47,714 nucleotides of DNA, from assembly GCA_016181145.1 (NCBI GenBank), contig JACOZW010000051.1, forward strand, positions 1-47,714, in the 5' to 3' direction. The position numbers were made by a program, and so were the translations under genes. The notes under the pieces are model-generated. The model saw nothing but the letters and a program-made list of their open reading frames with translations. It was not told where the DNA came from and ran no database searches. Below, one piece after another: positions 1-46,956 of the stretch (its first letter is position 1; each line of letters opens with the position of its first letter). The stretch is from Candidatus Yanofskyibacteriota bacterium (GTDB taxonomy: Bacteria; Patescibacteriota; Minisyncoccia; 2-02-FULL-40-12; GWA2-44-9).

Positions 1-215
1 CCGTATCATTTTCGAGACCGTTGCGGGAGGGATAGGTATAAACAATGATTGATAAACCGACAGGAAAGCGGGAACTGACCGAAGGGAATTCACGAAGGCT
101 TCCGTCTTGGTGGGGCAGTGCTTTAGCCTGCCCTATAGTCTCCATAGGTTTTCAATCATTGTTTGTCTATCCCGGAGCACAGGCCGAGAAAATGATGAGG
201 AAAGGGGTGAGCTTT
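1..215 (+). ncRNA. Putative structured element, outer-module copy E with a distinct inner module
   Basis: CATTTTCGAGACCGTTGC...GGGATAGGTATAAACAATGATTGA/TCAATCATTGTTTGTCTATCCC...GGAGCACAGGCCGAGAAAATGATGAGGAAAGG. Confidence 0.6.
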
Positions 216-6159: not shown

Positions 6160-6252
6160 TTGAGTTAAAAGTTCATAAAGTTTATAGAGTTCATAAAGTA
6201 GGAAATCCGACTCAAAAAAACTTTATAAACATTATAACTTTAAAAACTTTAT
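6160..6252. repeat. AT-rich inverted/tandem repeat element, copy 1 (TTCATAAAG/CTTTATAAA units)
   Basis: AGTTAAAAGTTCATAAAGTTTATAGAGTTCATAAAGT ... ACTTTATAAACATTATAACTTTAAAAACTTTATAAACT, filling a gene junction. Confidence 0.8.
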
Positions 6253-6881
6253 AAACTACTCCTCAGTTTTTCTATCGCTTCTCCAAAATTATCACTCTTA
6301 ATTATGTAGCTTCCGACAACTACTATCGATACTCCAGCCATCTTCAGCTTAGGTGCAGTCTCGGGAGTGATCCCACCATCAGCTATTATTACGATATCTG
6401 GATATGCTTTGCGAAAATCAGATATTATATTTATAACACCCTCCACAAACTCACCCCCCTGAAATCCAGGATGAACAGTCATAAATTGAATATAATCTAT
6501 TTTACCAATAAATTCTTTAATTTTATCCACTTCTGTCTCAGGATTTAAAACAAGTCCTACTTTTCTCTCATTTTTATGGATATCTTCAATTATAACATTC
6601 AAATTGACATCTGATTCCGCGTGAATAAAAAACCTATCGGCATGAGTCGAGAACCACTCTCTTATTACATCCTGAGGCCTCTGAACCATTAGATGTACAT
6701 CAAATTTCAAGGCCGATTCAAACCCCCTTAGTTCATCATAACCGTTGATAGTTTTATTAGGAACAAAAACGCCATCAGCTATATCAATATGGACCCTAGA
6801 GGCATAGGGTTCTATTCTAAGAGCCAGGTCTTTAAATTTAACCGAAGAATCCGTGAGAATTGCGGGGATGATTTCTACCAA
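6249..6881 (-). CDS. rpe: Ribulose-phosphate 3-epimerase
   Basis: PAIL, VHIDIADGVFVPN, DVHLMVQRP, MTVHPGFQGGEF, DGGITPETAPKL. Confidence 0.88.
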   Translation of the reverse strand: MVEIIPAILTDSSVKFKDLALRIEPYASRVHIDIADGVFVPNKTINGYDELRGFESALKFDVHLMVQRPQDVIREWFSTHADRFFIHAESDVNLNVIIEDIHKNERKVGLVLNPETEVDKIKEFIGKIDYIQFMTVHPGFQGGEFVEGVINIISDFRKAYPDIVIIADGGITPETAPKLKMAGVSIVVVGSYIIKSDNFGEAIEKLRSSL

Positions 6882-6885
6882 AACA

Positions 6886-7008
6886 AGTTAAAAGTTCATA
6901 AAGTTCATAAAGTTCATAAAGTAAGGAGTCTGGTCCAAGAAAACTTTATAAACATTATAACTTTAAGAACTTTATAAACATTATAACTTTAAGAACTTTA
7001 TAAACTAT
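6886..7008. repeat. AT-rich inverted/tandem repeat element, copy 2
   Basis: AGTTCATAAAGTTCATAAAGTTCATAAAGT ... (ACTTTATAAACATTATAACTTTAAGA)x2 ACTTTATAAACT, same orientation as copy 1. Confidence 0.8.
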
Positions 7009-7976
7009 TTCACCAAATTAGGCGGTGTTCTTCCCTCAAATGCTTCAATAATATTTTCAGCAGCCATTGAAGCCATTTTATTGCGGGTTTCCTCGGTTGC
7101 AGAAGCTATGTGGGGCGTAATTATGACATTGTCCAGATCTTTAAGTTCCGGCACTATGTCTGGCTCAAATTCAAAAACATCCAGCGCCGCCCCTCTAATA
7201 ACCTGCTCCTTCAATACTTTGGCGAGGGCCTTTTCATCAACTATCGGCCCACGCGATGTATTAACCAAATAAGCAGTTTTTTTCATTATTTTAAAACGGG
7301 CTTCGTTCATAAGATGATGGGTTGAATCTAATAATGGCACATGGATAGAGACAAAATCACAGTGAGGTAGCATATCATCTAATTTTTCTACGAATTGTGC
7401 TCCAAATTCTTTTTCAAAATCAGGATTAGGTTTTGGATCATTATACAAAACCTTCATTTCAAAGCCCTTAACTGCATGAAGGGCAACTCTAGAACCTATT
7501 CGTCCAAGACCCACTATTCCAAGGGTTTTACTAGACATATCAGTGCCCAAGAGAAGACTGGGACCCCAGGCCTTATATCGTCCGGCACGAGCAAAACGGT
7601 CCGCCTCACTTATTCTGTGGGCGATTGCAAGCATTAAAGCAAAAGTATGCTCAGCTACTGTATTAGTTAATACTCCAGGAGTATTAGTAACCATAAGGCC
7701 CTTCTTTTTTGCGGCATCTAGATCAATATTGTCAAATCCAACTGCATAGTTAGCAATTATTTTAAGCGTCGGTAAGCCGGCATCCATCACCTCACCATCA
7801 ATTTTGTCAGTTAGAATAGACAAAACCGCATCAGTACCCTTAATGCCCTCGAGCAATTCTTCTTTGGTTGCAGCCCTATTCTCGGCCTTATCGTTAATTA
7901 CAACTTCATAGCCCTTAGCCCTCAGAAGGCCTATTCCTATTTCCGGTATCGGACGCGTTACAAACACTCTAGACAT
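7005..7976 (-). CDS. D-isomer 2-hydroxyacid dehydrogenase (glyoxylate/hydroxypyruvate reductase-like)
   Basis: GIVGLGRIGSRVA, LVNTSRGPIVDEKAL, ITPHIASAT motifs. Confidence 0.88.
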   Translation of the reverse strand: MSRVFVTRPIPEIGIGLLRAKGYEVVINDKAENRAATKEELLEGIKGTDAVLSILTDKIDGEVMDAGLPTLKIIANYAVGFDNIDLDAAKKKGLMVTNTPGVLTNTVAEHTFALMLAIAHRISEADRFARAGRYKAWGPSLLLGTDMSSKTLGIVGLGRIGSRVALHAVKGFEMKVLYNDPKPNPDFEKEFGAQFVEKLDDMLPHCDFVSIHVPLLDSTHHLMNEARFKIMKKTAYLVNTSRGPIVDEKALAKVLKEQVIRGAALDVFEFEPDIVPELKDLDNVIITPHIASATEETRNKMASMAAENIIEAFEGRTPPNLVK

Positions 7977-8889: not shown

Positions 8890-9806
8890 TTTAGCTTATT
8901 TAAATATTGCACCACACTCAGCGTTGCCGTACATCCTTGACCGGCAGCGATGACTATCTGCTTGAAGGGTACATCAGAGACATCGCCCGCCGCATACAAT
9001 CCAGGGATATTAGTTTCGCACCTAGCGTTAACTTTAATCTCCCCGAATGGATTTTTTTCAACATTATCAGGAACAATATTAGAATTGGGAACCATTCCTA
9101 TGTGAACGAAAATACCGTCAACTTTAATTTCATGTTCCGCATTAGCCTTGTCTATATATTTTAAGCCATTTACAAACTTGTCTCCGACGACCCCCTTAGT
9201 GGCAACTTCATAAATTATTTCTACCTTATCTTTAGGATAAGAAGTAAGTTTTTTTATTAAGACGTCATCGCCCTTAAAGGTGGCGTTCTTATTGATGACA
9301 TAAACCTTCTTGCAGATATCAACGCCCATCAGAGCTGACTCCAGAGCCGAATTACCACCTCCGACAACGGCAACGGTCTTGCCGCCGAACAAAGGCATAT
9401 CACAAGTCGAACAATAACTTACGCCCTTATTGCGATATTCTTTCTCGCCGGTAACACCAAGCTCTCTCGGATGAACACCAGTAGCAACTATAACAGCTTT
9501 GGCCATATAATTATTTCCTTTTTGAGTAGCAACCAAAAAAGTCTCATCTGCCTGTTTAGTTATTTTGCTGACCTCGACACCCTCCTCGATATCAACCTTA
9601 TAATGCTCAAGGTGCTTCCTAAATTTATCGGTCAAAGTAATGCCGTCAGTCATACCATCTCCCGGCCAATTGCCTATCTCTCCTGAAGTTATAACCTCGC
9701 CTCCAAAATCTTTGGTTATTATTTTTAAATTAAGACCCCTTCGGATACCATATATACCGGCCGTTGTTGCAGCAGCGGAACCGCCGATGATTAATAGATC
9801 GAACAT
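8886..9806 (-). CDS. trxB: Thioredoxin reductase
   Basis: GGSAAATTAGIYGIRRGL, CSTCD redox motif, VVGGGNSALESAL, GLYAAGDVSD. Confidence 0.92.
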   Translation of the reverse strand: MFDLLIIGGSAAATTAGIYGIRRGLNLKIITKDFGGEVITSGEIGNWPGDGMTDGITLTDKFRKHLEHYKVDIEEGVEVSKITKQADETFLVATQKGNNYMAKAVIVATGVHPRELGVTGEKEYRNKGVSYCSTCDMPLFGGKTVAVVGGGNSALESALMGVDICKKVYVINKNATFKGDDVLIKKLTSYPKDKVEIIYEVATKGVVGDKFVNGLKYIDKANAEHEIKVDGIFVHIGMVPNSNIVPDNVEKNPFGEIKVNARCETNIPGLYAAGDVSDVPFKQIVIAAGQGCTATLSVVQYLNKLK

Positions 9807-10644: not shown

Positions 10645-12302
10645 TTGAATTGTCTGGTGTCATAGATCCGATAATTATCATTACGGAATATCAGCGGAAA
10701 ATGCTCCGAAAAGTATTTTTCATTTGCATTAAGGTCATTTATTTCCGTCGGACCAATTACAACATAACTGATATTATATTTTTTCAAAAGCTCACTAACA
10801 TCCACGCCTAGATACATTTCCCTCATATCAGCCTCTCTCGAAGAGTAGTTAAAACCAAAATTCCACGCCCAAGCTGTATAACCCATTAGTATTGGCCTTA
10901 AACCCCAGACCATTACAAAATGATTATGAGATGGGGCGGTAAGAAAAACAGCCAGGGAGTCTGTTTTTTCTCTTATTTCAAGACCAAGATTTATATCATC
11001 TGTACTCGTCATCATAAAATCATGTTTATCAACTTGGACTAGTCTCGTAAGCTCGGTAATCCCCGTAAGAGTTAGGATTAGAAATAATAATATTGCCATA
11101 ACCCTAAATATAAAATTCCTCTTGGCCCAAATACTAGCCAAAGCCATCGATACCGGCGCTGACAATATTAAATAAGACCACCAAAAAATTTTAGAATTGT
11201 CCCAGGCTATCGGCTGGAGAAGATACAGGTTTCCAACCGTAAAAATCATAAATGCGGAAATATATACCGCCCACCCTGAATAATTGATACTATTTCTCCA
11301 AAAATACAGACCTAAAATAGCCATGGGTAGCATAATCCCCCACAATAACGACCACATTTTAACCCAGTCAAAAAAATCACCTTTTACTGTATAGCCAGGG
11401 TTCCATTTTACAAATGAATTGTTTTCAATCCCGCCCCATATAAAAGTCAGATAAAGGACAGATGAAATTATTCCCGCAATCAGAACAAAATGCCAGAGAA
11501 TCCTCCATTTACTAAAGCTAAATAGACAAATTAAACCGGTGATTAGGAATACCGCCATAAAGCTGTGCGGATGGGCTATTGGGAGAACACCGGCTAGAAT
11601 TCCTGAAATTACTAATATCTTAGTTTTAATACTTTCGGCAAGATTATCTCTTAAAATCACATAGAGGACGCCGACTATAGCCCAGACGCCCAAAGTAACA
11701 CCGATAAGAAATGAGCGCTGTGGTATTAAAAGCCCTACTGCCATATTACCGGCGAACCACTGATAAATATCATATCGGCCGTAATCTATCGGCGGATATT
11801 TCAAAAATTCAAATGAAGGATTCCGCCACAATTCTTTCAAGAAATTAACAAATCCCGTTCCGGCAGAAAGAAAAAAAATAAAAACCGAAAGAACAGAAAG
11901 TTTTTTTGATTTAACCAGAAGGTAAAACAATAAATAAAGTCCAACCAATAGAGAAAAGGTTAAGAATATGGATGGCAATACGAAGGCATGCTTGAGCGGC
12001 ATTCCCAGCTTCATAAGCATGCCTGATATCAGATTTGTTAAGAATGGATAGGTAAATTTACCTCCGGCATACAGCGGATGGTAAGCGAACCAATCCTGGA
12101 GGCTTTTAAAGGCAAAGGTATTAGCTATTGAAATGTGTAAAGACCAATCGCTCCAAACATTAACATGACCGGCATACAAACCATCCGGCTTAAAATCCAA
12201 AATTTTCCAGAATACTATTGAAAAATAAGAACCAAGAGTTAAAATTAGAAATAGCAGATACCTGAAATGAGCCCTGATTGTTTTTGATAATAATTCAAAC
12301 AT
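10641..12302 (-). CDS. Polytopic membrane protein, probable GT-C-type glycosyltransferase
   Basis: Many TM segments, N-terminal loop with WSDWSLH; ORF track reaches 12353 but MFELLSK at 12302 is the likely start. Confidence 0.65.
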   Translation of the reverse strand: MFELLSKTIRAHFRYLLFLILTLGSYFSIVFWKILDFKPDGLYAGHVNVWSDWSLHISIANTFAFKSLQDWFAYHPLYAGGKFTYPFLTNLISGMLMKLGMPLKHAFVLPSIFLTFSLLVGLYLLFYLLVKSKKLSVLSVFIFFLSAGTGFVNFLKELWRNPSFEFLKYPPIDYGRYDIYQWFAGNMAVGLLIPQRSFLIGVTLGVWAIVGVLYVILRDNLAESIKTKILVISGILAGVLPIAHPHSFMAVFLITGLICLFSFSKWRILWHFVLIAGIISSVLYLTFIWGGIENNSFVKWNPGYTVKGDFFDWVKMWSLLWGIMLPMAILGLYFWRNSINYSGWAVYISAFMIFTVGNLYLLQPIAWDNSKIFWWSYLILSAPVSMALASIWAKRNFIFRVMAILLFLILTLTGITELTRLVQVDKHDFMMTSTDDINLGLEIREKTDSLAVFLTAPSHNHFVMVWGLRPILMGYTAWAWNFGFNYSSREADMREMYLGVDVSELLKKYNISYVVIGPTEINDLNANEKYFSEHFPLIFRNDNYRIYDTRQFN

Positions 12303-13731
12303 GAGAATAACGAATAATAAATTATACCTAATAATTATCCTCGCTTCTAGCATTTTAGTTCATTTTCTTTTTTTCGGACACCCTAACCAGGTTGTTTTTG
12401 ATGAAGTATGGTATGGAAGACACGTTAATGACTATATCAACAAAACCTTTCATTTTGACGGTCATCCCCCTCTTGGACGAATGACCATTGCCGGATTTGC
12501 AAAAGTTATGGACTATAAACCGGCCAATTCCTTCACTAATATCAGCGAGCAGTTCAATGACAAACAATATCTTATCTTACGATTTTTGCCGACCTTAGCT
12601 GGTGCCATTTTACCGCTTATAATTTATCTGATAATCCGTGAATTGGGACTGACTCCCTTTGCCGCATTTGCCGGAAGCATGTTAATGGTATTTGAGAATA
12701 GTTTTGTCGCTCAATCGCGCCTGCTATTGATGGATTCGTCTTTGATTCTATACGAGTTTACTTCTCTATTTTTCTATCTGCGCTATCGCAATCACAAGAA
12801 AATTTATATGCTGTTTCTGGCTGGTATATTCTCCGGCTTAGCCTTTGCGGTTAAATGGGTCGGCCTGTCTTTTGTTGCTCTTCCCGTCTTATTTGAGGGA
12901 CTCAACATGTTATCCGAAATGAAGAGAAAAGGAATATCAGTATTAAAATCATCAAAAGTATGGCTTACTTTCACGGCGCTGATTATCATTCCTTTTGCTG
13001 TGTATTTCTCGGCCGTAACCGCTTATTCCCTGATTTTAAATAAATCCGGCACAGGCGATGCCTTTATGAGTGCGGGTTACCAGAAGACATTACAAGGCAA
13101 TAATTACCAGAATGATCCAAGCCTTAAAACGCCAAGCATGTTCAGCAAGTTCACTGAGCTAAACAGGCAGATGTATGCAGTCAACCAAGCATTCACTGAG
13201 CTAAACAGGCAGATGTATGCAGTCAACCAAGCATTGACTGCCAGCCACCCCTATGCAAGCGGCTGGTATACCTGGCCCTTGATGCTCAGGCCTATTTATT
13301 ATTGGGTTAGCGGCAACGCCAGAATATACTTCATTGGCAATCCTGTAATTTGGTGGTCTGCAACCATAGCAGTATTGTATGGTCTGCGAATCATTATTTA
13401 TAACCTATGGCTAAAATTAAGAAGATATGACATATCGCCATCGCTTTCATCCGATAATATATCTGTACTTCTTGCAGGATACGCCCTCAATATGCTTCCT
13501 TTTATGGGCGTAAAGCGTGTCATGTTTCTTTATCATTATTTCGCCGCCTATATTTTTGCAGTACTTCTACTTGTTTATTTTATATCGCAACAAAAAAGCT
13601 CCAAACAAATCTTTGGAGCTTTACTCACAGTAAGCATTGTGGCTTTCATATTCTTCGCACCGCTGACCTATGGCCTCAACCTATCACCAAAAGCCTATGA
13701 GCTAAGGGTATGGTTTAGCTCGTGGAGGTAG
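12301..13731 (+). CDS. PMT/ArnT-like GT-C glycosyltransferase (protein O-mannosyltransferase family)
   Basis: FDEVWYGRHVNDYINKTFHFDGHPPLGR, multiple TMs, GVKRVMFLYHYF. Confidence 0.8.
   Translation: MRITNNKLYLIIILASSILVHFLFFGHPNQVVFDEVWYGRHVNDYINKTFHFDGHPPLGRMTIAGFAKVMDYKPANSFTNISEQFNDKQYLILRFLPTLAGAILPLIIYLIIRELGLTPFAAFAGSMLMVFENSFVAQSRLLLMDSSLILYEFTSLFFYLRYRNHKKIYMLFLAGIFSGLAFAVKWVGLSFVALPVLFEGLNMLSEMKRKGISVLKSSKVWLTFTALIIIPFAVYFSAVTAYSLILNKSGTGDAFMSAGYQKTLQGNNYQNDPSLKTPSMFSKFTELNRQMYAVNQAFTELNRQMYAVNQALTASHPYASGWYTWPLMLRPIYYWVSGNARIYFIGNPVIWWSATIAVLYGLRIIIYNLWLKLRRYDISPSLSSDNISVLLAGYALNMLPFMGVKRVMFLYHYFAAYIFAVLLLVYFISQQKSSKQIFGALLTVSIVAFIFFAPLTYGLNLSPKAYELRVWFSSWR
13150..13233 (+). repeat. 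Exact 2x42-bp in-frame tandem duplication
   Basis: (TTCACTGAGCTAAACAGGCAGATGTATGCAGTCAACCAAGCA)x2 = (FTELNRQMYAVNQA)x2. Confidence 0.97.
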
Positions 13732-18362: not shown

Positions 18363-18420
18363 AGTATTTAGTATTACATATTAAGTATTATGTATTAAGT
18401 ATTATGTATTAAGTATTATG
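18363..18420. repeat. TTAAGTATTATGTA short tandem repeat tract
   Basis: (TATTAAGTATTATG)x3 with related flanks. Confidence 0.75.
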
Positions 18421-18437
18421 GGTCAAGAAACTCGTAT

Positions 18438-18604
18438 CAAGCGAAGGGTTATCTCAGACTCGGACCACATTCGGTTTCTTCCAGCGGAAACCAAATCTTA
18501 AGTACTCGGAAAAATTGCCCAGTACCTTCATTTAAGAAATAAAGTTGCTGGGACCAAGCTAATTTTTCCTGCGTATTTCCTCCCTAGAGATAACCCCTCG
18601 CTTG
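18438..18604 (-). ncRNA. Putative structured RNA/hairpin element, family 1 copy A
   Basis: 18-bp terminal stem CAAGCGARGGGTTATCTC/GAGATAACCCYTCGCTTG enclosing conserved TAGGGAGGAAATACGC ... GAGTCT (minus strand). Confidence 0.65.
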
Positions 18605-18637
18605 AGTAAAAACACGCTCGTTATTTTTCACTAACAA

Positions 18638-18675
18638 AAAAGGAGCGGGGAGAGTTTTACCTCTGCCCGCCCCTG
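18638..18675 (-). terminator. Intrinsic terminator of the RluA-type gene
   Basis: minus strand GGGGCGGGCAGAGG...CCTCT/CCCCGCTCCTTTTTT. Confidence 0.65.
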
Positions 18676-18686
18676 CGAAAACTAGG

Positions 18687-19364
18687 CTAATTGCGCCAGC
18701 CCGCCGTTGGCACTACCCAATCTTCGAGAGTATCGTTGGCACCGCTATCCCAGTGGTGCCAGTTGAAATCGAAGCTCCTGAAATCATCTGGCACAGCTGC
18801 CTGGATCGTAGTCCAAGGACCGGGCTTACCGGATTCATCAGGAAGTCTCACCTCCATACGCCAGGCATGGAGCATCTGTCCGAGACGCGCTTCCGTCACC
18901 GGACCATTATATTTCCTGTCGCCGACGATCGGCGACCCAACGGATTTCAGGTGCTTGCGAATCTGATGAGTCCGACCGTTCTGAAGCAGTCGACACTCCA
19001 TCAGGGCAAACGAGCCTGAACGTTCCAGGACCCTGAAACCGGTAATTGCCGACTTGCCATTAAGAGACCTGTCGACGATTGTCTCATCCCACTTGGGACA
19101 CCTGGTAATTGCCAGGTATGTCTTTTGGGTAATGCTGTGCCAATGACGCGCCAAATACCCAATTTGAGTCTTCGAGACGCCGGCCAAGTTTACACCAGAC
19201 GTGAACTTATCGATCCGATGAGCCACGAAGCCCGTCGGATAGATCGACCTGACCATCTCCCAAAGTTCGGGAATGTCAGTGTCCTTGGGACCCTGACTGC
19301 ACATTCCCGGCGGTTTATTGAGCGCCAGGAAACCGTCTCGCGAAAACAACACTCCAACCTGCAT
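18687..19364 (-). CDS. RluA-family pseudouridine synthase
   Basis: FLALNKPPG, AHRIDKFTSG, GRTHQIRKHLKSVGSPIVGDRKY. Confidence 0.88.
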   Translation of the reverse strand: MQVGVLFSRDGFLALNKPPGMCSQGPKDTDIPELWEMVRSIYPTGFVAHRIDKFTSGVNLAGVSKTQIGYLARHWHSITQKTYLAITRCPKWDETIVDRSLNGKSAITGFRVLERSGSFALMECRLLQNGRTHQIRKHLKSVGSPIVGDRKYNGPVTEARLGQMLHAWRMEVRLPDESGKPGPWTTIQAAVPDDFRSFDFNWHHWDSGANDTLEDWVVPTAGWRN

Positions 19365-19426
19365 TTTCAGCCTCCAATCGACTTAGATGAGTGAGTTGTT
19401 ACCGCCCTAACCGACCATTCTCCACG

Positions 19427-19455
19427 ATTATATCATACTTTTAATAAAAAGTAAA
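19427..19455 (-). promoter_or_regulatory. Sigma70-like promoter
   Basis: TTTACT, 17-nt spacer, TATAAT (19427-19432, minus strand). Confidence 0.6.
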
Positions 19456-19475
19456 GAGCATAAATTTCCAACAAA

Positions 19476-19498
19476 AAGCGGGGTTAATCCCGCTTACC
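19476..19498 (-). terminator. Intrinsic terminator
   Basis: AAGCGGGGTTAATCCCGCTT with A/T tract. Confidence 0.6.
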
Positions 19499-20306
19499 TC
19501 ACAATATTAATCGTCTGAACAGGACACAGAGTGTTCCAGACTTTGCCCAGGATAGAATATCTTTCGCTAGCATCTTTTACTAACTGCATTACGCAATATG
19601 ATAGTCCAACAACAGCGCCGACAAAAGAGATAAGCGCTATAGCCACACCCGTAACTAACATGACCGTATTTAACCAGTTCAAACCCTCAAGCTCAGGACC
19701 AGAAACAAAAAATACAACACTGCCAAGGAGTAATCCAAAAAACACAGAACCACATAAACTCAATAAAATCCATCTTACAACTATATTTCTATTCAGTAAC
19801 TTTTCATAAAAAAGTATAAATATCTTCATCATGGCACTGACATAAGTTACCGCTAGGCCCATAGATCCCAAAAATACAGCCAATTCCTTCAACGAAAAAG
19901 TTGGTAAATGTGGATTTGAAAGAAAGGTGATGAGTGCCAAAACTGTCAAATACGACACAGTAGATACAAAAAATATGACCACTGCAGACAAAGTTAATGC
20001 AAGACTTCTAGCCCAAGACAAAAAACAATAATGAGCATTTAGCTGAGTCGCCCCAAAGCTCTCCGACAAAAATTCATATCCGCCGAGAAAATACAGAAAA
20101 CTATCCTCCCTAACGCTTATAGCTCCGAATGACATTATTGACTGGATTAACAGTGATAGATTAGATATAAAAATCGTACTCTCGATCATCATCAAGATAG
20201 TCTTTTGTCCAAGCGTTAGGCCGCTCTGCCATGTCAGGTTAGCAAGCCAAACCGTGACTGCCATAATAATCACCATCATTGCCCTAGCGAAAAATCGTCC
20301 TACCAT
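19494..20306 (-). CDS. Polytopic membrane protein, unknown
   Basis: Several TM segments; promoter TTGACT-N16-TATATT (20347-20374) and SD AGGGAGA place the start at MVGRFFARAMM (20306) rather than 20378. Confidence 0.65.
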   Translation of the reverse strand: MVGRFFARAMMVIIMAVTVWLANLTWQSGLTLGQKTILMMIESTIFISNLSLLIQSIMSFGAISVREDSFLYFLGGYEFLSESFGATQLNAHYCFLSWARSLALTLSAVVIFFVSTVSYLTVLALITFLSNPHLPTFSLKELAVFLGSMGLAVTYVSAMMKIFILFYEKLLNRNIVVRWILLSLCGSVFFGLLLGSVVFFVSGPELEGLNWLNTVMLVTGVAIALISFVGAVVGLSYCVMQLVKDASERYSILGKVWNTLCPVQTINIVR

Positions 20307-20391
20307 CTTCGTTCTCCCTGTTTTCAAGTTACCTGTTGCGAGATGTAATATATCATAATCCGAACATAAGTCAACCAATTCTATCGACTCG

Positions 20392-20756
20392 CTAGAAAAT
20401 CCCGTCGTTTTTGAGCTCTTCTAATATGTCCTGAGGAATGGCTATCTTTTTTCCAATCGGACTGATCCCTGGATATCGCCAAGCGGAGATTATTATCTTC
20501 TTATTCCCAACTTTTAACTTTTCACTTTTAACTTTTAACTTATCTTGATACATAACCCAAACCTCAGTAGGTTTTTTGGTATTAGTTGAGGGAGACATAA
20601 CTCCAATGGTATTTTCAGCAATTCCCTCCTCCACCCTCTTCGGGTTTCTTATAACTCTCTTAACCCTATCCGGAGATAAGCCATAAAAAAGCATCTTGCG
20701 GATGACATGGTTGGTCCAATGATATTTGGTATCTTTCTTGAGTGATTCGAAGTTCA
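20392..20756 (-). CDS. DUF4258-like small protein
   Basis: WTNHVIRKMLFYGLSPDRVKRVIRNPKRVEEG...VWVMYQ...IIISAWRYPG; likely start MNFESLKK at 20756, the ORF extension being repeat-derived. Confidence 0.5.
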
Positions 20757-20834
20757 TCCCGTTAGAAGTAGCCCCGCCGAGGTCCCCTTGGGACTCATTC
20801 GCTAGAGGCGAATGAGCGAGACTTCTAACGGGAT
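20757..20834 (-). repeat. Hairpin repeat family 7, copy 1 (REP-like)
   Basis: ATCCCGTTAGAAGT ... ACTTCTAACGGGAT enclosing two smaller hairpins; shared with 45379-45454. Confidence 0.85.
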
Positions 20835-20888
20835 TCATATTTATTAATCTACCAGTATATTTTCAATAATTCTAGCCATATTTTAAAT

Positions 20889-21744: not shown

Positions 21745-21945
21745 CCGACCGCTGGGGGCTTCCCCCGACCCGGCCATGCGCCCGTCCCGCCAATGGCGGG
21801 ACGCGGACGTTCCGGGTCACCCCCATCGGGTCCCGAGGCGATTCCAGGGGCGGCTAAAGCACGCCCCTAAAACCTTCGCCTGAACGGCAAAATAGCATAA
21901 ATATTTTGAATTTGTAGTGACTCGGCTCTAAGGATTAAAAATGAG
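21745..21945. ncRNA. Putative structured element, family 6 copy 1
   Basis: GGGGGCTTCCCCCGACCCGGCCATGCG...CCGGGTCACCCCCATCGGGTCCC plus GGCAAAATAGCATAAATATTTTGAATTTGTAG, shared with 40967-41130. Confidence 0.6.
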
Positions 21946-21969: not shown

Positions 21970-22312
21970 GCCCAAACCCTTTCCGTAGCATTTTCGAGAC
22001 CATCGCCACGATAGAAGTGAAGGGACTATACCCTAGGGAGGAAATATGTAGTTATCTTTTAAATAAAGAATGAGCTTACCCAATTCATTTACAGAACGTT
22101 TCGGAAGCCGACTGGGCTGGCTCGGAGAAGGTTCCCGTGCTTTAGCCGGGAATCTCTGTAGAGAGAGCAAAAACTCAGCAGAGTTTTATGCGATCTGTAA
22201 ATGAGTTGGGTAAGCGAGTTAACCCTGAGTCTGGGCGTAGTCTTTGGGCGAAACCTTGTCTATCCCGAAGCACCTGCCTGCCGGCAGGCCGAAAAAAATG
22301 ATGAGGAAAGTG
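21970..22312 (+). ncRNA. Putative structured RNA/hairpin element, family 1 copy D with outer module
   Basis: CATTTTCGAGACC..ACGATAGAAGTGAAGGGACTATACCC-TAGGGAGGAAATA ... GAGTCTGGGCGTAGTC..GTCTATCCCGAAGCAC..AATGATGAGGAAAG. Confidence 0.65.
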
Positions 22313-22330
22313 GTGTGCGATTGTTTTTAT

Positions 22331-23410: not shown

Positions 23411-23677
23411 TTCACCCTTTCCTCATCATTTTCTCAACCAATGCTCCGAGATAGACAAACTCATCGTTCAGGGACTATACCCAGACTCGGACCACATTCG
23501 GTTTCTTCCTGCGGAAACCGAATCTTAAGTACTCGGAAAAATTGTTACCATAAGAATGGTAAACCAAGCCAATTTTTCCTGCGTATTTCCTCCCTAGGGT
23601 ATAGTCCCTTCACTTCTATCGTGGTAATGGTTTCCCTGCCTGCCGGTAGGCAGGGAAAATAATTAGGAAAGGGTTCG
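23411..23677 (-). ncRNA. Putative structured RNA/hairpin element, family 1 copy B with outer module
   Basis: GGGACTATACCC/GGGTATAGTCCC stem with CAGACTCGGACC...GCGTATTTCCTCCCTA, nested in AACCCTTTCCT...AGGAAAGGGT arms. Confidence 0.65.
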
Positions 23678-24380: not shown

Positions 24381-24540
24381 AGCGCAGGCTATCTGCCTTT
24401 CGGGACCATCTAGTCGCCAGATTGATTGGTTTGTCAAAGGTCATTCCTTGACAAAATCTGGCGACGATCGAGTGAGTCTTGCCGCTGGAGCAAGACGAAC
24501 AGACGAACGCGTCCCGAAAGGCAGTGGCCGAGAGCGAGGA
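24381..24540 (+). ncRNA. Putative structured RNA/hairpin element, family 2
   Basis: CTGCCTTTCGGGAC/GTCCCGAAAGGCAG, GTCGCCAGATT/AATCTGGCGAC, TTTGTCAA/TTGACAAA, GTCTTGC-CGCTGGA-GCAAGAC. Confidence 0.7.
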
Positions 24541-37132: not shown

Positions 37133-37287
37133 TTTCTCTCAGCTATCTGCCTTTCAGGACCATCTAGTCTCCGGATTGATTGGTTTGTCAAAGGTCTTTC
37201 CTTGACAAAATCCGGAGACGATCGAGTGAGTCTTGCCGCTGGAGCAAGACGAACGCGTCCTGAAAGGCAGTAGCCGAGAGAAATAGT
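37133..37287 (+). ncRNA. Putative structured RNA/hairpin element, family 2
   Basis: CTGCCTTTCAGGAC/GTCCTGAAAGGCAG, GTCTCCGGATT/AATCCGGAGAC, same loops as 24381 copy with compensatory stem changes. Confidence 0.7.
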
Positions 37288-39940: not shown

Positions 39941-40393
39941 TTAGGCGCGCGACTTAAAATCCAAAGAAAGAGAGTTAATGCAATATCTCTGACCGCTAGC
40001 CGGAGTTCCATCTGGCATGTTTTTGGGTCCGTCCGGAAACACATGACCTAGATGAGAGCCGCATTTTTTACACAAGACTTCAGTCCTAGACATACCATGA
40101 CTGGAATCATCTTTTAATTCAATGTGTTCCCTATTAACCGGATCGGTGAAACTCGGCCAACCGGTACCAGAATCAAATTTAGTATCTGAAGAAAAAAGTT
40201 CCTGACCACAAGCTCCGCAGACATACATTCCCGCTTCTTTGTTCTTATAATACTTACCGGTAAAAGCCGCCTCCGTCCCCTTCTCCCTTAAAACTTTATA
40301 CTGCTCCGGGGTCAAGCAGGTTTTCCATTCTGATTCGGTTTTCGGTCCGCCAGCTGGCGGATTATCATTATTCATATAATTAGTGCTACTCAA
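39941..40393 (-). CDS. msrB: Peptide methionine-(R)-S-oxide reductase
   Basis: [46 protein letters not shown]. Confidence 0.95.
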
Positions 40394-40578
40394 AGACTAT
40401 ACCCAGACTCAGAGTTAATTAGCTTACCCAATTCATTTACAGATCGCATAAAACTCTGCTGAGTTTTTGCTCTCTCTCAGCCCAGTCGGCTTCCGAAACG
40501 TTCTGTAAATGAATTGGGTAAGCTCATTTTGATTTAAAAAATAACTGTGTATTTCCTCCCTAAGGTATAGTCTTTGAG
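40389..40578 (-). ncRNA. Putative structured RNA/hairpin element, family 1 copy C
   Basis: 15-bp stem CTCAAAGACTATACC/GGTATAGTCTTTGAG; inner 23-bp perfect stem AGCTTACCCAATTCATTTACAGA; conserved TAGGGAGGAAATA/GAGTCTG (minus). Confidence 0.7.
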
Positions 40579-40966: not shown

Positions 40967-41130
40967 TAATCAGAATATCTCCGATTTTTATGAATCCTTT
41001 GAGACGAATCGCTACAAATTCAAAATATTTATGCTATTTTGCCGGGACCCGATGGGGGTGGTCAGGCTCGGCCCCGCCTTGGCGGGGTCCGCATGGCCTG
41101 ACCGGGGGAAGGGGATATTCTGCTTAATGA
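40967..41130. ncRNA. Putative structured element, family 6 copy 2
   Basis: Closing stem CAGAATATC/GATATTCTG; GGGACCCGATGGGGGTGGTCAGG...CGCATGGCCTGACCGGGGGAAG; shared block with 21745-21945. Confidence 0.6.
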
Positions 41131-43887: not shown

Positions 43888-45378
43888 TTAGCCCCTCTGT
43901 TCTGGCTGGCCACCGCGGATTTTTTTGTACTTTTCGGTATATTTATCGAGTATTTTTTCCACTTCTTCATTCGGAATTTCCAGTCTTAAAAGTTCGACTG
44001 CATGAATTGTGTCATAGATATCATTCTTATTTTCTATTTTATAAATAGCATCTCGCCACATAATAGCTTTTTCATATTCTTGCCTTGCCACTGCTTTTTT
44101 CTCAAGTTCACCGAACATCGCCATAAAACCTTCATAAACACCCCTCTCAACTCCGCCAGCCTCAAAAGTCCTTTCTTTGAACGGAATGCGCAAAACCCCC
44201 TGCCTTTCTTTGGCTATTTCATATATTTTACCGCTTCTTTTCCATTCAAATGCAGTAGAGACTATTTTTTCATAAAGATCCCGGGCACGTTCGACGGAAC
44301 TGGCATCAACATTAGGTATTCGCCGAACTATATCAAGGCATATATAGGCTCCCCGCTCTATCTCTTCTAGGCTCCACCAGGGCTTAGCTGAAGCCCACCA
44401 AAAATGATCGCTGGCCAGGGCGGCGTCCATCCTGGACCTGATTTCTCCAAAAAGAATGTGATTCTTATCAAGAGCATAGACAGACTTAAGGGACAGATTT
44501 ACCAAATCCCACTGCCATGTATGTATCTCATTTTCAGGATCTTTCCATGATAAGAACTGAACATTCCTATCAACATCCTCCTCACTGGAAGCCCAGGTTG
44601 ATTTTACCGGGGATACTTCCTCTATATCCTTATAAATCCCCATTAAGTCTGAAACTTGCACCAATTCAAAATCTTTTGATTCAAACATTTCAAACAGCAT
44701 GTTCTCAAGACCCGGCCTGTGATGACCAAAAGTCTCGCCGTCCATTCCGGTAACCAGATAACGGCCGCTGGCAAAATCTTCATGCATCGCTTCCTTTAAA
44801 GACTCGTAAGACCTTACTACTGCGCTCATAATTAAATTGCTGGGGCGCCTTTCCCTGAAAAAAGCCAGCATATCAGTCCCCTTTATTTTATATAATTTAT
44901 TGTAGTCGACTGATCCAGTTTTACCGGATTTAGCAATTTCATCGAGAATCATCCATTTAAATCCCATAGACTCGACTATTTTAGGCAAGCGCTCATCATA
45001 AGCCATCTCTGGCGGGAAAAAACCTATCGGTCTATATCCGTGATCAAAATAGTAATGAAGGGTTTCGTTATTCGTCTCTATCTGCCGGAAAATTTCTTCT
45101 TCCGTTAAAAAGGGTAACAAGGCATGAAATTTAGCCGAAGTTGTCAGCTCAAGACGACCTTCCTTAATAAGTTCTCGCAACATATCTATAATGTCGCCGT
45201 ATTGATATTTATCAAAAAGCTCGAGGAGTGAGCCATTTATATTCATGGTCAGGCGAACTTTCTTGTGTTTAGTGAGTCCGCGCAAAATCGGCCTGTAGCT
45301 TTGATTTACAACAGCCTCTAAAATGTCCGGCTGTTGGCCGGCCGGTTGGTATATGTGTAAAAAATTAGCCCACTTCAT
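43888..45378 (-). CDS. Glycoside hydrolase family 57 protein
   Basis: FLHIYQPAGQQ, GFFPPEMAYDERLPKIVESMGFKWMILDE, VTGMDGETFGHHRPG. Confidence 0.88.
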   Translation of the reverse strand: MKWANFLHIYQPAGQQPDILEAVVNQSYRPILRGLTKHKKVRLTMNINGSLLELFDKYQYGDIIDMLRELIKEGRLELTTSAKFHALLPFLTEEEIFRQIETNNETLHYYFDHGYRPIGFFPPEMAYDERLPKIVESMGFKWMILDEIAKSGKTGSVDYNKLYKIKGTDMLAFFRERRPSNLIMSAVVRSYESLKEAMHEDFASGRYLVTGMDGETFGHHRPGLENMLFEMFESKDFELVQVSDLMGIYKDIEEVSPVKSTWASSEEDVDRNVQFLSWKDPENEIHTWQWDLVNLSLKSVYALDKNHILFGEIRSRMDAALASDHFWWASAKPWWSLEEIERGAYICLDIVRRIPNVDASSVERARDLYEKIVSTAFEWKRSGKIYEIAKERQGVLRIPFKERTFEAGGVERGVYEGFMAMFGELEKKAVARQEYEKAIMWRDAIYKIENKNDIYDTIHAVELLRLEIPNEEVEKILDKYTEKYKKIRGGQPEQRG

Positions 45379-45454
45379 CCCGTTAGAAGTAGCCCCGCCA
45401 AGGTCCTTCGGACTCGTCCGCCTAAGGCGGACGAGCGAGACTTCTAACGGGATT
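45379..45454 (-). repeat. Hairpin repeat family 7, copy 2 (REP-like)
   Basis: ATCCCGTTAGAAGT/ACTTCTAACGGGAT terminal stem, GTCCGCCTTAGGCGGAC hairpin, directly abutting the GH57 ATG. Confidence 0.85.
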
Positions 45455-45459
45455 AATAA

Positions 45460-46956
45460 CTATTGAGATTCTTTATGGAACCTTAGTGCCATTTCAAAAA
45501 GTTTTACGTATTCCTGGGCTGATTTTTCCCATGAGAAATCTTTGGTCATTGCCCGCTTCATGAGCTTTTCCCATTCCTTCTTTTGGCGATAGAGTTCACT
45601 GGCTCTTATAATGGCGATGGTCAGAGAGAAAGGATCGTATTTATCAAAAACAAAGCCCGTCCCCTCTTCTTTCTCGGGAGTAAAATCTTCAACTGAGTCA
45701 GCTAGGCCACCAACCTTTCTGACGATAGGAATACAGCCGTATCGCATCGCCTCCATCTGAACAAGGCCGGATGGCTCAAAACGCGAAGGAATTAAAACCG
45801 CATCGGCTCCGCCAAAAATCATCCTGGGCAGTCGAGGATCGAATGAAAAGTGAGTTCCGACTCTATCAGGATATTTGAGCTTTAACTCTTCAAAATAAGT
45901 GCGGTAGCCAGGATTTCCCTCGCCAACGATAATGAATTGGAAATTTATATTTTCCATCAAAGAGCTGAGCATCTGGGTAAGGATATCGAAGCCCTTTTGT
46001 TCGTCCATGCGACCAACCATACCTACCACGAAGACATCACCAGAAGTTGTCGGAAGACCAAACTGTTTCTGAAGGGCAGCCTGATTTTCGAATCTTTTAC
46101 TGAGACTTTTCACGGAATAATTTACGGCTAAATCTTTGTCTGTCTCAGGGTTAAGAGATTCGGTATCAATGCCGTTCAAAACTCCAAAAAGACGGCTCTT
46201 TCTCTCATTGAGAAGCTTATCCTGGCCCTCACCAAACTCTTCGGTTAATATTTCGCGTGCATAGGTCGGAGAAACAGTATTGATGACATCAGCATACATA
46301 ATACCGCGCCGCATGCCGTTCAGTTTATTTGTTCTTGGGTCAAAGAAGTCACTAATCCGAGCCTGGCCCGCATCGTAATCCATCTCAGAAATATGCTTAG
46401 GATCAAACATCCCCTGATATCTTAAGTTATGGATAGAGAAAACTATAGGGATCTTAGACAAGACCGGATCATCTTTGTAGTCGGTGTGAACAAGATTGGG
46501 TATAAATCCGGTTTGCCAGTCAGAAGCGACAATGACATCGGGCTTCCATTCAGATTTTTTTATAAACTCAAGCGCGCCTTTAGCTAAGATTATCCAGCGA
46601 ATCGTATCGTCCGAGTATCCGTAAACATTGGCCCGCTTCTCGTAATATTCCATGTTTTCCAAAAAATAGTTAACTCCGCCACCGTCCGGATTTATGTAGC
46701 GGAGAACATTTGAGGCAAGGATACCGTGAGGATCTCGATCCCCGCTCTCAACCTCGATATTATTGAGTTCCGTTTCCAGGTGATATTTTTCCGTATCAAT
46801 AGTTGCATATTTAGGCGTCAAAACCCTGGCATCATGTCCAAGTTCGCGAAGAGCCTTAGGCAATGCGTGCATTACCTCGCCCAACCCCCCGACTTTTACA
46901 AAAGGTGCGGCTTCTGAAGCTACAAAAAGTATCTTTAATTTGGGACTATTTGGCAT
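45460..46956 (-). CDS. glgA: Glycogen/starch synthase (GT5)
   Basis: LKILFVASEAAPFVKVGGLGEVMHALPKAL, VFSIHNLRYQG, NGIDTESLNP, PSRFEPSGLVQMEAMRYGCIPIVRKVGGL. Confidence 0.95.
   Translation of the reverse strand: MPNSPKLKILFVASEAAPFVKVGGLGEVMHALPKALRELGHDARVLTPKYATIDTEKYHLETELNNIEVESGDRDPHGILASNVLRYINPDGGGVNYFLENMEYYEKRANVYGYSDDTIRWIILAKGALEFIKKSEWKPDVIVASDWQTGFIPNLVHTDYKDDPVLSKIPIVFSIHNLRYQGMFDPKHISEMDYDAGQARISDFFDPRTNKLNGMRRGIMYADVINTVSPTYAREILTEEFGEGQDKLLNERKSRLFGVLNGIDTESLNPETDKDLAVNYSVKSLSKRFENQAALQKQFGLPTTSGDVFVVGMVGRMDEQKGFDILTQMLSSLMENINFQFIIVGEGNPGYRTYFEELKLKYPDRVGTHFSFDPRLPRMIFGGADAVLIPSRFEPSGLVQMEAMRYGCIPIVRKVGGLADSVEDFTPEKEEGTGFVFDKYDPFSLTIAIIRASELYRQKKEWEKLMKRAMTKDFSWEKSAQEYVKLFEMALRFHKESQ

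Follow-up and report, generated by a model that had tools for sequence, protein, structure and literature searches.

Results

Composite repeats in the window

The window analysed here, a stretch of 47,714 nucleotides, constitutes the entire contig C17 of a genome (G000) of 951,685 bp, which is contained in 68 contigs and 92% complete. The nearest kin of its source is Candidatus Yanofskybacteria (Patescibacteria), and among 12 exact matches to the core of the F1 module described below in named genomes, 8 belong to RIFCSPLOWO2_02_FULL_41_13 and 39_8b, with the others being scattered. At its start, the window carries a member of a multi-copy repeat family termed O-Z (1–206, plus strand), which consists of a left arm (O-left, 1–39), an interior Z (about 40–162) and a right arm (O-right, 163–206). 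The covariance model of this family (R2) matches positions 1–205 with 127 bits (E=5.5e-29) and flags the match as cut at the 5' end. Since the ends of contigs C3 and C54 match positions 1–99 with 100% identity, this copy is truncated on its left by an assembly break, and the motif AACCCTTTCC, which a preliminary description had assigned to it, is missing as the contig begins inside the element.

The arms of this copy had been described as shared with two further composite elements, B and D, and their sharing is indeed far above chance, although the arm sequences had to be corrected in two details. The motif TTGTCTATCYCGRAGCAY is found exactly three times in the window without mismatches, at 163–180 and 22256–22273 on the plus strand and at 23441–23458 on the minus strand (chance mean 0.17). 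Similarly, GAGAAAATGATGAGGAAAGG is located at 186–205, at 22292–22311 (three mismatches) and on the minus strand at 23416–23435 (no mismatches; chance mean 0.00), and CATTTTCGAGACCRTYGC is exact at 7–24 and 21989–22006 (chance mean 0.09). Besides the missing AACCCTTTCC, the correction concerns the left arm of D, thought to be intact, which contains no whole CATTTTCGAGACC but is split by a 20-nt palindrome, thus reading CCCTTTCCTAATTATTTTC, CCTGCCTACCGGCAGGCAGG (the palindrome) and GAAACCATTACCACGATAG.

Element B, on the plus strand, is composed of an O left arm (21975–22014), the left part of a second module, F1, with a P1 strand and CTAGGGAGGAAATA (22015–22052), an interior Y (22072–22217) with the hairpin GAGCTTACCCAATTCATTTACAGA, the right part of F1 (22225–22247) and an O right arm (22254–22313) interrupted by a palindrome similar to that of D (CCTGCCTGCCGGCAGG) at 22274–22289. 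The covariance model R1, built for F1 enclosing an interior X, matches B at 22020–22246, including the right part of F1, with 21.8 bits (E=8e-4) while skipping the interior, where Y stands in place of X and itself contains a 42-nt insert of an element E (22120–22161). Element D, on the minus strand, encloses a complete F1-X (23469–23610; R1 152 bits, E=4e-38) between an O right arm (23412–23460), of which 46 nt are 89% identical to window positions 161–206 (E=5.5e-11), and an O left arm (23611–23677), with the palindrome located at about 23635–23655. The two remaining elements, both on the minus strand, lack O arms as had been noted before. A (18437–18605; R1 18442–18600, 139.7 bits, E=7.5e-35) is a bare F1-X whose P1 helix differs in sequence (TCAAGCGAGGGGTTATCTC/GAGATAACCCTTCGCTTGA), and C (40389–40578; R1 40391–40576, 43.4 bits, E=1.6e-9) a bare F1-Y with Y at about 40420–40525. 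The single family core previously attributed to A–D therefore holds for the F1 ends, which are present in all four, but not for their interior, which is X in A and D and Y in B and C. A distant relative of F1-X is found at 37137–37279 on the plus strand (R1 30 bits, E=5e-6), with a second copy at 24388–24534.

The window contains additional repeats. A two-copy hairpin repeat (20753–20845 and 45374–45464) has arms ATCCCGTTAGAAGT and ACTTCTAACGGGAT with different inner hairpins (CATTCGC.. and CGTCCGC..). AT-rich direct repeats with short tandem ACTTTATAAACATTATA units (6163–6258 and 6886–7016) flank an open reading frame at 6249–6881, and a perfect 42-bp tandem duplication (13150–13233) resides within the open reading frame 12301–13731. 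A family designated V (CGGCAAAATAGCATAAATATTTTGAATTTGTAG..) adjoins B and C on opposite strands (21885–21941 and 40988–41044) and has related copies in the genomes G001 and G002.

Exchange of interiors and nested insertion

The modules are recognized by short signatures. Module O is defined by (AA)CCCTTTCCGTAGCATTTTCGAGACCRTTGC..GATAG on the left and GTTTGTCTATCCCGGAGCAC..GAGAAAATGATGAGGAAAGGG on the right, and the ends of F1 by GACTATACCCTAGGGAGGAAATACGCAG and GAGTCTGGGTATAGTC. Interior Z contains AAACAATGATTGATAAACCGACAGGAAAGC..GAAGGAATTTCGG..TTCCGGAGGTTTTCAATCATTGTTT, interior X a stem with a GGCTTGGT loop, CGAGTACTTAAG, a stem with a CGCTGGA loop and GGTCCGAGTC, interior Y the motif CATTTACAGAACGTTTCGGAAGCCGACTGGGCTGAGAGAGAGCAAAAACTCAGCAGAGTTTTATGCGATCTGTAAATG, whereas E is a unit of about 45–50 nt with the sequence AGGCGAAGGTT..GTGCTTTAGCC..GGAATCGCCT. 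When these motifs were scored over 36 representative loci from the genome itself and three congeners, O was found to enclose Z, F1-X, F1-Y or, in one relative, a further family W (O-W, G001:C26), and F1 to enclose X or Y. O-Z occupies about nine places in the own genome, some of them divided by contig ends. O-F1-X is present at C18 and, each with one damaged arm, in D and at C40:666, and O-F1-Y in B, at C33 and, with a left arm only, at C14. F1-X without O is found in A, at C40:3668 and in the majority of the copies in G001 and G003, F1-Y without O in C, at C51:43918 and at C40:1, and Y is bare at G000:C49:2362 and C23:12436. The interiors between shared O arms thus differ, with Z in the first copy, F1-Y with E in B and F1-X in D, and there is no fixed combination. 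In the case of O, F1 and Z, and of Y in F1, the evidence shows that interiors were exchanged, and no simple insertion that retained the earlier interior was seen for F1 in O, for Y in F1 or for O with respect to Z.

Nested insertion is directly evident for E and the 20-nt palindrome, as some copies carry the insert at a position where others lack it. E resides in X, Y and Z interiors and in family V, and for each of these hosts other copies have an uninterrupted site. It is found in the P3 loop of F1-X in C50 and in three copies of G001 and in Z at C51:40481, with two units on opposite strands at G001:C23:31726. In Y it interrupts element B, whereas every other Y copy reads GGGCTG^AGAGAGAG, and a free-standing E on the minus strand (21836–21884) interrupts a family V repeat, of which the copy at about 40988–41090 reads TTTTGCCG^GGACCCG. 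Further precise empty sites for E are GCTGGA^AGAAACC and CAGGAAAG^CCGAAAC. An E-like insert in the first Z of the window (105–145, plus strand; TCTTGG..GTGCTTTAGCC..GTCTC) is evident from comparison with the copies in C48 and C66, with other Z copies containing TTCCGGAGGTTTT at this place. Element B is in this way four layers deep (O>F1>Y>E), in addition to the palindrome in its right O arm. The palindrome (CCTGCCTGCCGGCAGGCAGG), located in two O arms of the window (23635–23655 and 22274–22289), is scattered over about 30 of 95 related genomes. Inspection by eye revealed no target-site duplication at the empty sites of E and the palindrome or around O-Z copies. The insertions are placed in loops and at helix junctions so that the fold of the host element survives, and this use of loops and junctions may reflect either targeting or selection. 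The varied combinations together with the presence and absence of E and the palindrome support the modular assembly or nested insertion that had been suggested.

Fold, covariation and strand preference

Both R1 and R2 were run against 45 genomes of the order. In a first alignment of F1-X, 24 of the 41 pairs of the fold show two-sided changes. Among 46 distinct copies over the order, compensatory changes are found at all 41 pairs, with 93.8% of the cells paired compared to 28.7–50% in slid versions and a covariation score of 0.74 compared to 0.20 after shuffling, in an alignment that was fitted to R1 and is hence biased towards its fold. F1-X is a new structured family. Searches of Rfam 15 with the window and eight element loci yielded no match above the gathering score, so that no known RNA in this collection explains either. 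A resemblance of GGTATAGTCC to group I introns and a tRNA-like reading of GGTCCGAGTC were dropped as neither has an Rfam match.

The pairs of F1-X contain 73 G.U against 19 A.C in the 46 distinct copies, whose relatedness causes the nominal p value to overstate the evidence, and the predicted energy is lower on the same strand in 12 of 12 O-Z and 12 of 13 F1-X copies. Both features indicate that one single strand, either RNA or single-stranded DNA, folds or is selected. Early counts in P1 of F1, with equal numbers of G.T and A.C (7:7 by hand; 4:4), had suggested no strand preference, which was overturned by the larger count.

The closing helix P1 of F1-X encompasses 12–22 bp and is nearly perfectly paired, while its sequence differs from copy to copy (examples being TTATTAGACAGATATATTTC, TCAAGCGAGGGGTTATCTC and AAAATAAAAAGACTATACCC). 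Pairing amounts to 77–93% within a copy but to 28–54% if left and right arms are crossed between copies, and it extends by about 4–5 nt beyond the model, with the first four nucleotides outside of R1 being paired in 53–69% compared to about 25%. The end helix of O-Z is likewise specific to each copy (GGTTAATTTTTTCC/GGAAAAAATTAACC and ATTGTTTC/GAAACAAT). In one operon gap of G003, the arm of another family overlaps with the final codons of the gene upstream.

Distribution among related genomes

Full-length F1-X is present in 16 of the 45 genomes of the order, with 20 copies in G001, 14 in G012 and 10 in G000, and O-Z in 7 of 45, with eight matches in G000 and three in G002. Nearly all of 75 F1-X copies are intergenic, with overlaps chiefly involving short open reading frames of doubtful reality and, in one case in G034, a large one. 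With respect to co-directional flanking genes their orientation is random (15 same, 17 opposite), which speaks against a cis-acting leader.

Congeners lack the elements at the loci of B and D. The site of B, about 590 bp in the window, is a gap of about 60 bp in G002 and G003 with the adjoining terminator being conserved, and contains other hairpin repeats in G001. D is missing from the orthologous locus in G001 and G002. Element A is part of a block of about 2 kb (18363–20399), comprising a pseudouridine synthase gene, an unknown 294-residue open reading frame and the element, which is missing from three congeners, whose sequence reads straight across. Two gaps of one operon that harbour O-Z in the own genome are both filled by a further repeat family in G001 (TTTACCAATTTCCATTRAATTGTCATTR.., C21:7400–7530 and 8890–9000), with one of them being occupied by a third kind, a W-like repeat, in G003. 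Among the genomes compared, none of which formed a near-identical pair with and without a copy, single insertion events were observed in the nested cases only. A viral or plasmid origin was dropped, as no plasmid match was found for F1-X, no phage match for O-Z and no match to the core patterns of either in viral contigs.

A search for Y1 transposases and reverse transcriptases (RVT_1) in G000 detected neither in this 92%-complete genome, and both were set aside as probable movers. Y1 transposases are also absent from G002, whereas they are present in G001 and G003. Reverse transcriptases of about 350 residues are encoded in 24 of 29 genomes searched, with none in the own genome. They match group II- and DRT-like models below the cut-off, with no curated model passing, and by their sequence look like those of diversity-generating retroelements; a link between them and the repeat elements was not seen.

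Discussion

The window and its related genomes hold families of repeats with covarying folds and a strand preference, which are nested in each other, occur in shifting combinations and have counterparts in empty sites and in orthologous loci devoid of an element. We think it probable that the families in question (O-Z, F1-X, Y, E, W and the short palindrome) are structured repeats of a MITE-like, non-autonomous type that populate the intergenic DNA of Candidatus Yanofskybacteria and relatives, nest and swap interiors, which is the most economical account. Strong covariation counts against it insofar as it would equally be expected of a functional RNA, and so do the failure to detect a Y1 transposase or RVT_1 in the 92%-complete genome and the lack of visible target-site duplications. 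In this account, the identity of a family would reside in a one-stranded fold with conserved loop motifs, whose stems may vary freely as long as pairing holds. Copies would spread to fresh intergenic sites, presumably by a trans-acting enzyme working on folded single-stranded DNA or RNA, smaller elements would settle within larger ones, at loops and helix junctions where the larger fold is kept, and elements with common ends would swap interiors by recombination between copies, making B (O-F1-Y-E) the putative product of at least four layers. Mobility itself, the single-stranded intermediate and the recombinational exchange between copies are features that we infer.

The covariation, the strand preference and the long persistence within the order could alternatively be explained if each family were a multi-copy functional RNA of the host, such as an sRNA, a ribozyme or a regulator with expansion-prone helices, with the modules as peripheral domains of variable form and no mobility involved. 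Such RNAs are unlikely in light of copy numbers ranging from 0 to 20 among close relatives, locations that are not conserved with orthologous sites being empty, the lack of an orientation preference with respect to genes, and the occurrence of interior Y both bare and within F1. An even lower probability is assigned to REP/BIME-type elements that are moved as single-stranded hairpins by a Y1 transposase (RAYT). Folded single-strand hairpin units in intergenic regions without target duplication and the Y1 transposases of G001 and G003 would fit such a system, but G000 and G002 contain O-Z copies and no Y1 transposase, the elements extend over 140–390 nt with complex junctions compared to the 20–40 nt of REPs, and O lacks a conserved GTAG. 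Finally, it appears highly improbable that arms and interiors were shaped mainly by slippage, template switching in hairpins (palindrome correction) and gene conversion in the absence of transposition. These processes could account for P1 arms that are copy-specific yet near-perfectly complementary and for some arms that overlap the last codons of the neighbouring gene, but on their own they create no new copies at unrelated loci.

The private P1 helices, compared here in one genome per species, could reflect either selection on pairing only, the entry of copies into hairpins, or a flank copied in inverted orientation. The idea that insertions target pre-existing hairpins appears less likely given that the window contains only two short-loop palindromes of at least 14 bp, both terminator-like, and that arms at one intergenic gap differ between species. 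It is conceivable, if rather improbable, that the repeats represent a new kind of mobile element that is recognized by the shape of a folded single strand. A core with conserved loops and free stems would then be copied into new sites, the flank would be copied in inverted form upon insertion, which would endow each copy with a private end helix, and cores of different families could stack in one another's loops.

Classical MITEs are defined by conserved terminal repeats and target duplications. The repeats described here are short, non-coding, multi-copy and intergenic as MITEs are, but their terminal inverted repeats are not conserved, as the end helix of F1 varies and the ends of O are partly conserved. 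The way of working of small mobile repeats is thus better supported than a formal membership in the MITEs. BOX elements of Streptococcus pneumoniae are modular, with common ends and a variable middle made of a tandem of one unit. The elements in the window equally share ends around a variable middle, which is in their case swapped for unrelated structured families. We are not aware of covariation or conserved motifs at junctions of a similar kind in the mitochondrial hairpin elements of sponges and Allomyces. These double-hairpin or repetitive hairpin elements (sponge RHE and the Allomyces elements cited with them, PMC2800124) resemble the present repeats as multi-family intergenic hairpin repeats that move singly or in larger clusters, and no flanking duplication was reported for those of Allomyces, but they are organellar and form simpler hairpins (PMC2800124). 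The MITE-like small mobile repeats of bacteria, such as Correia/NEMIS, ERIC, RUP, RPE and YPAL, are likewise intergenic, multi-copy and non-coding units of 100–200 bp with a mostly unknown mover and a long base-paired fold from pairing of the 5' and 3' ends (PMC2229807). In contrast to these (PMC2229807), the repeats described here lack a conserved terminal inverted repeat or TA duplication, and they instead combine a copy-specific end helix with a conserved multi-branch fold containing loop motifs, in at least five families with nesting to four deep and exchangeable interiors that reside in Patescibacteria and outside of Rfam. Compared to the REP/BIME elements and their RAYT transposases (PMC2817692, PMC3733652), they are similarly palindromic, intergenic, mosaic and hairpin-based. 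They are however far larger and branched, no Y1 transposase was found in the own genome, and they do not form palindromes of 20–40 nt with a GTAG tag next to the hairpin, many copies carrying GTATC. A survey confined to the open-access literature, as opposed to subscription journals, yielded no account of such elements in Patescibacteria.

Genomes of Patescibacteria comprise about 1 Mb or less and are thought to be streamlined. The genome analysed here nonetheless holds several families of repeats, and a sister genome contains 20 copies of one of them. The families become searchable with the models R1 and R2, and their repeats break assemblies, as at position 1 of the window. The copy-specific, nearly perfectly paired end helix raises the question of the mode of insertion. 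If the elements were recognized by shape, selection would act on a grammar of nestable folds instead of terminal sequences. The repeats provide a natural archive of nested insertions whose order can be read.
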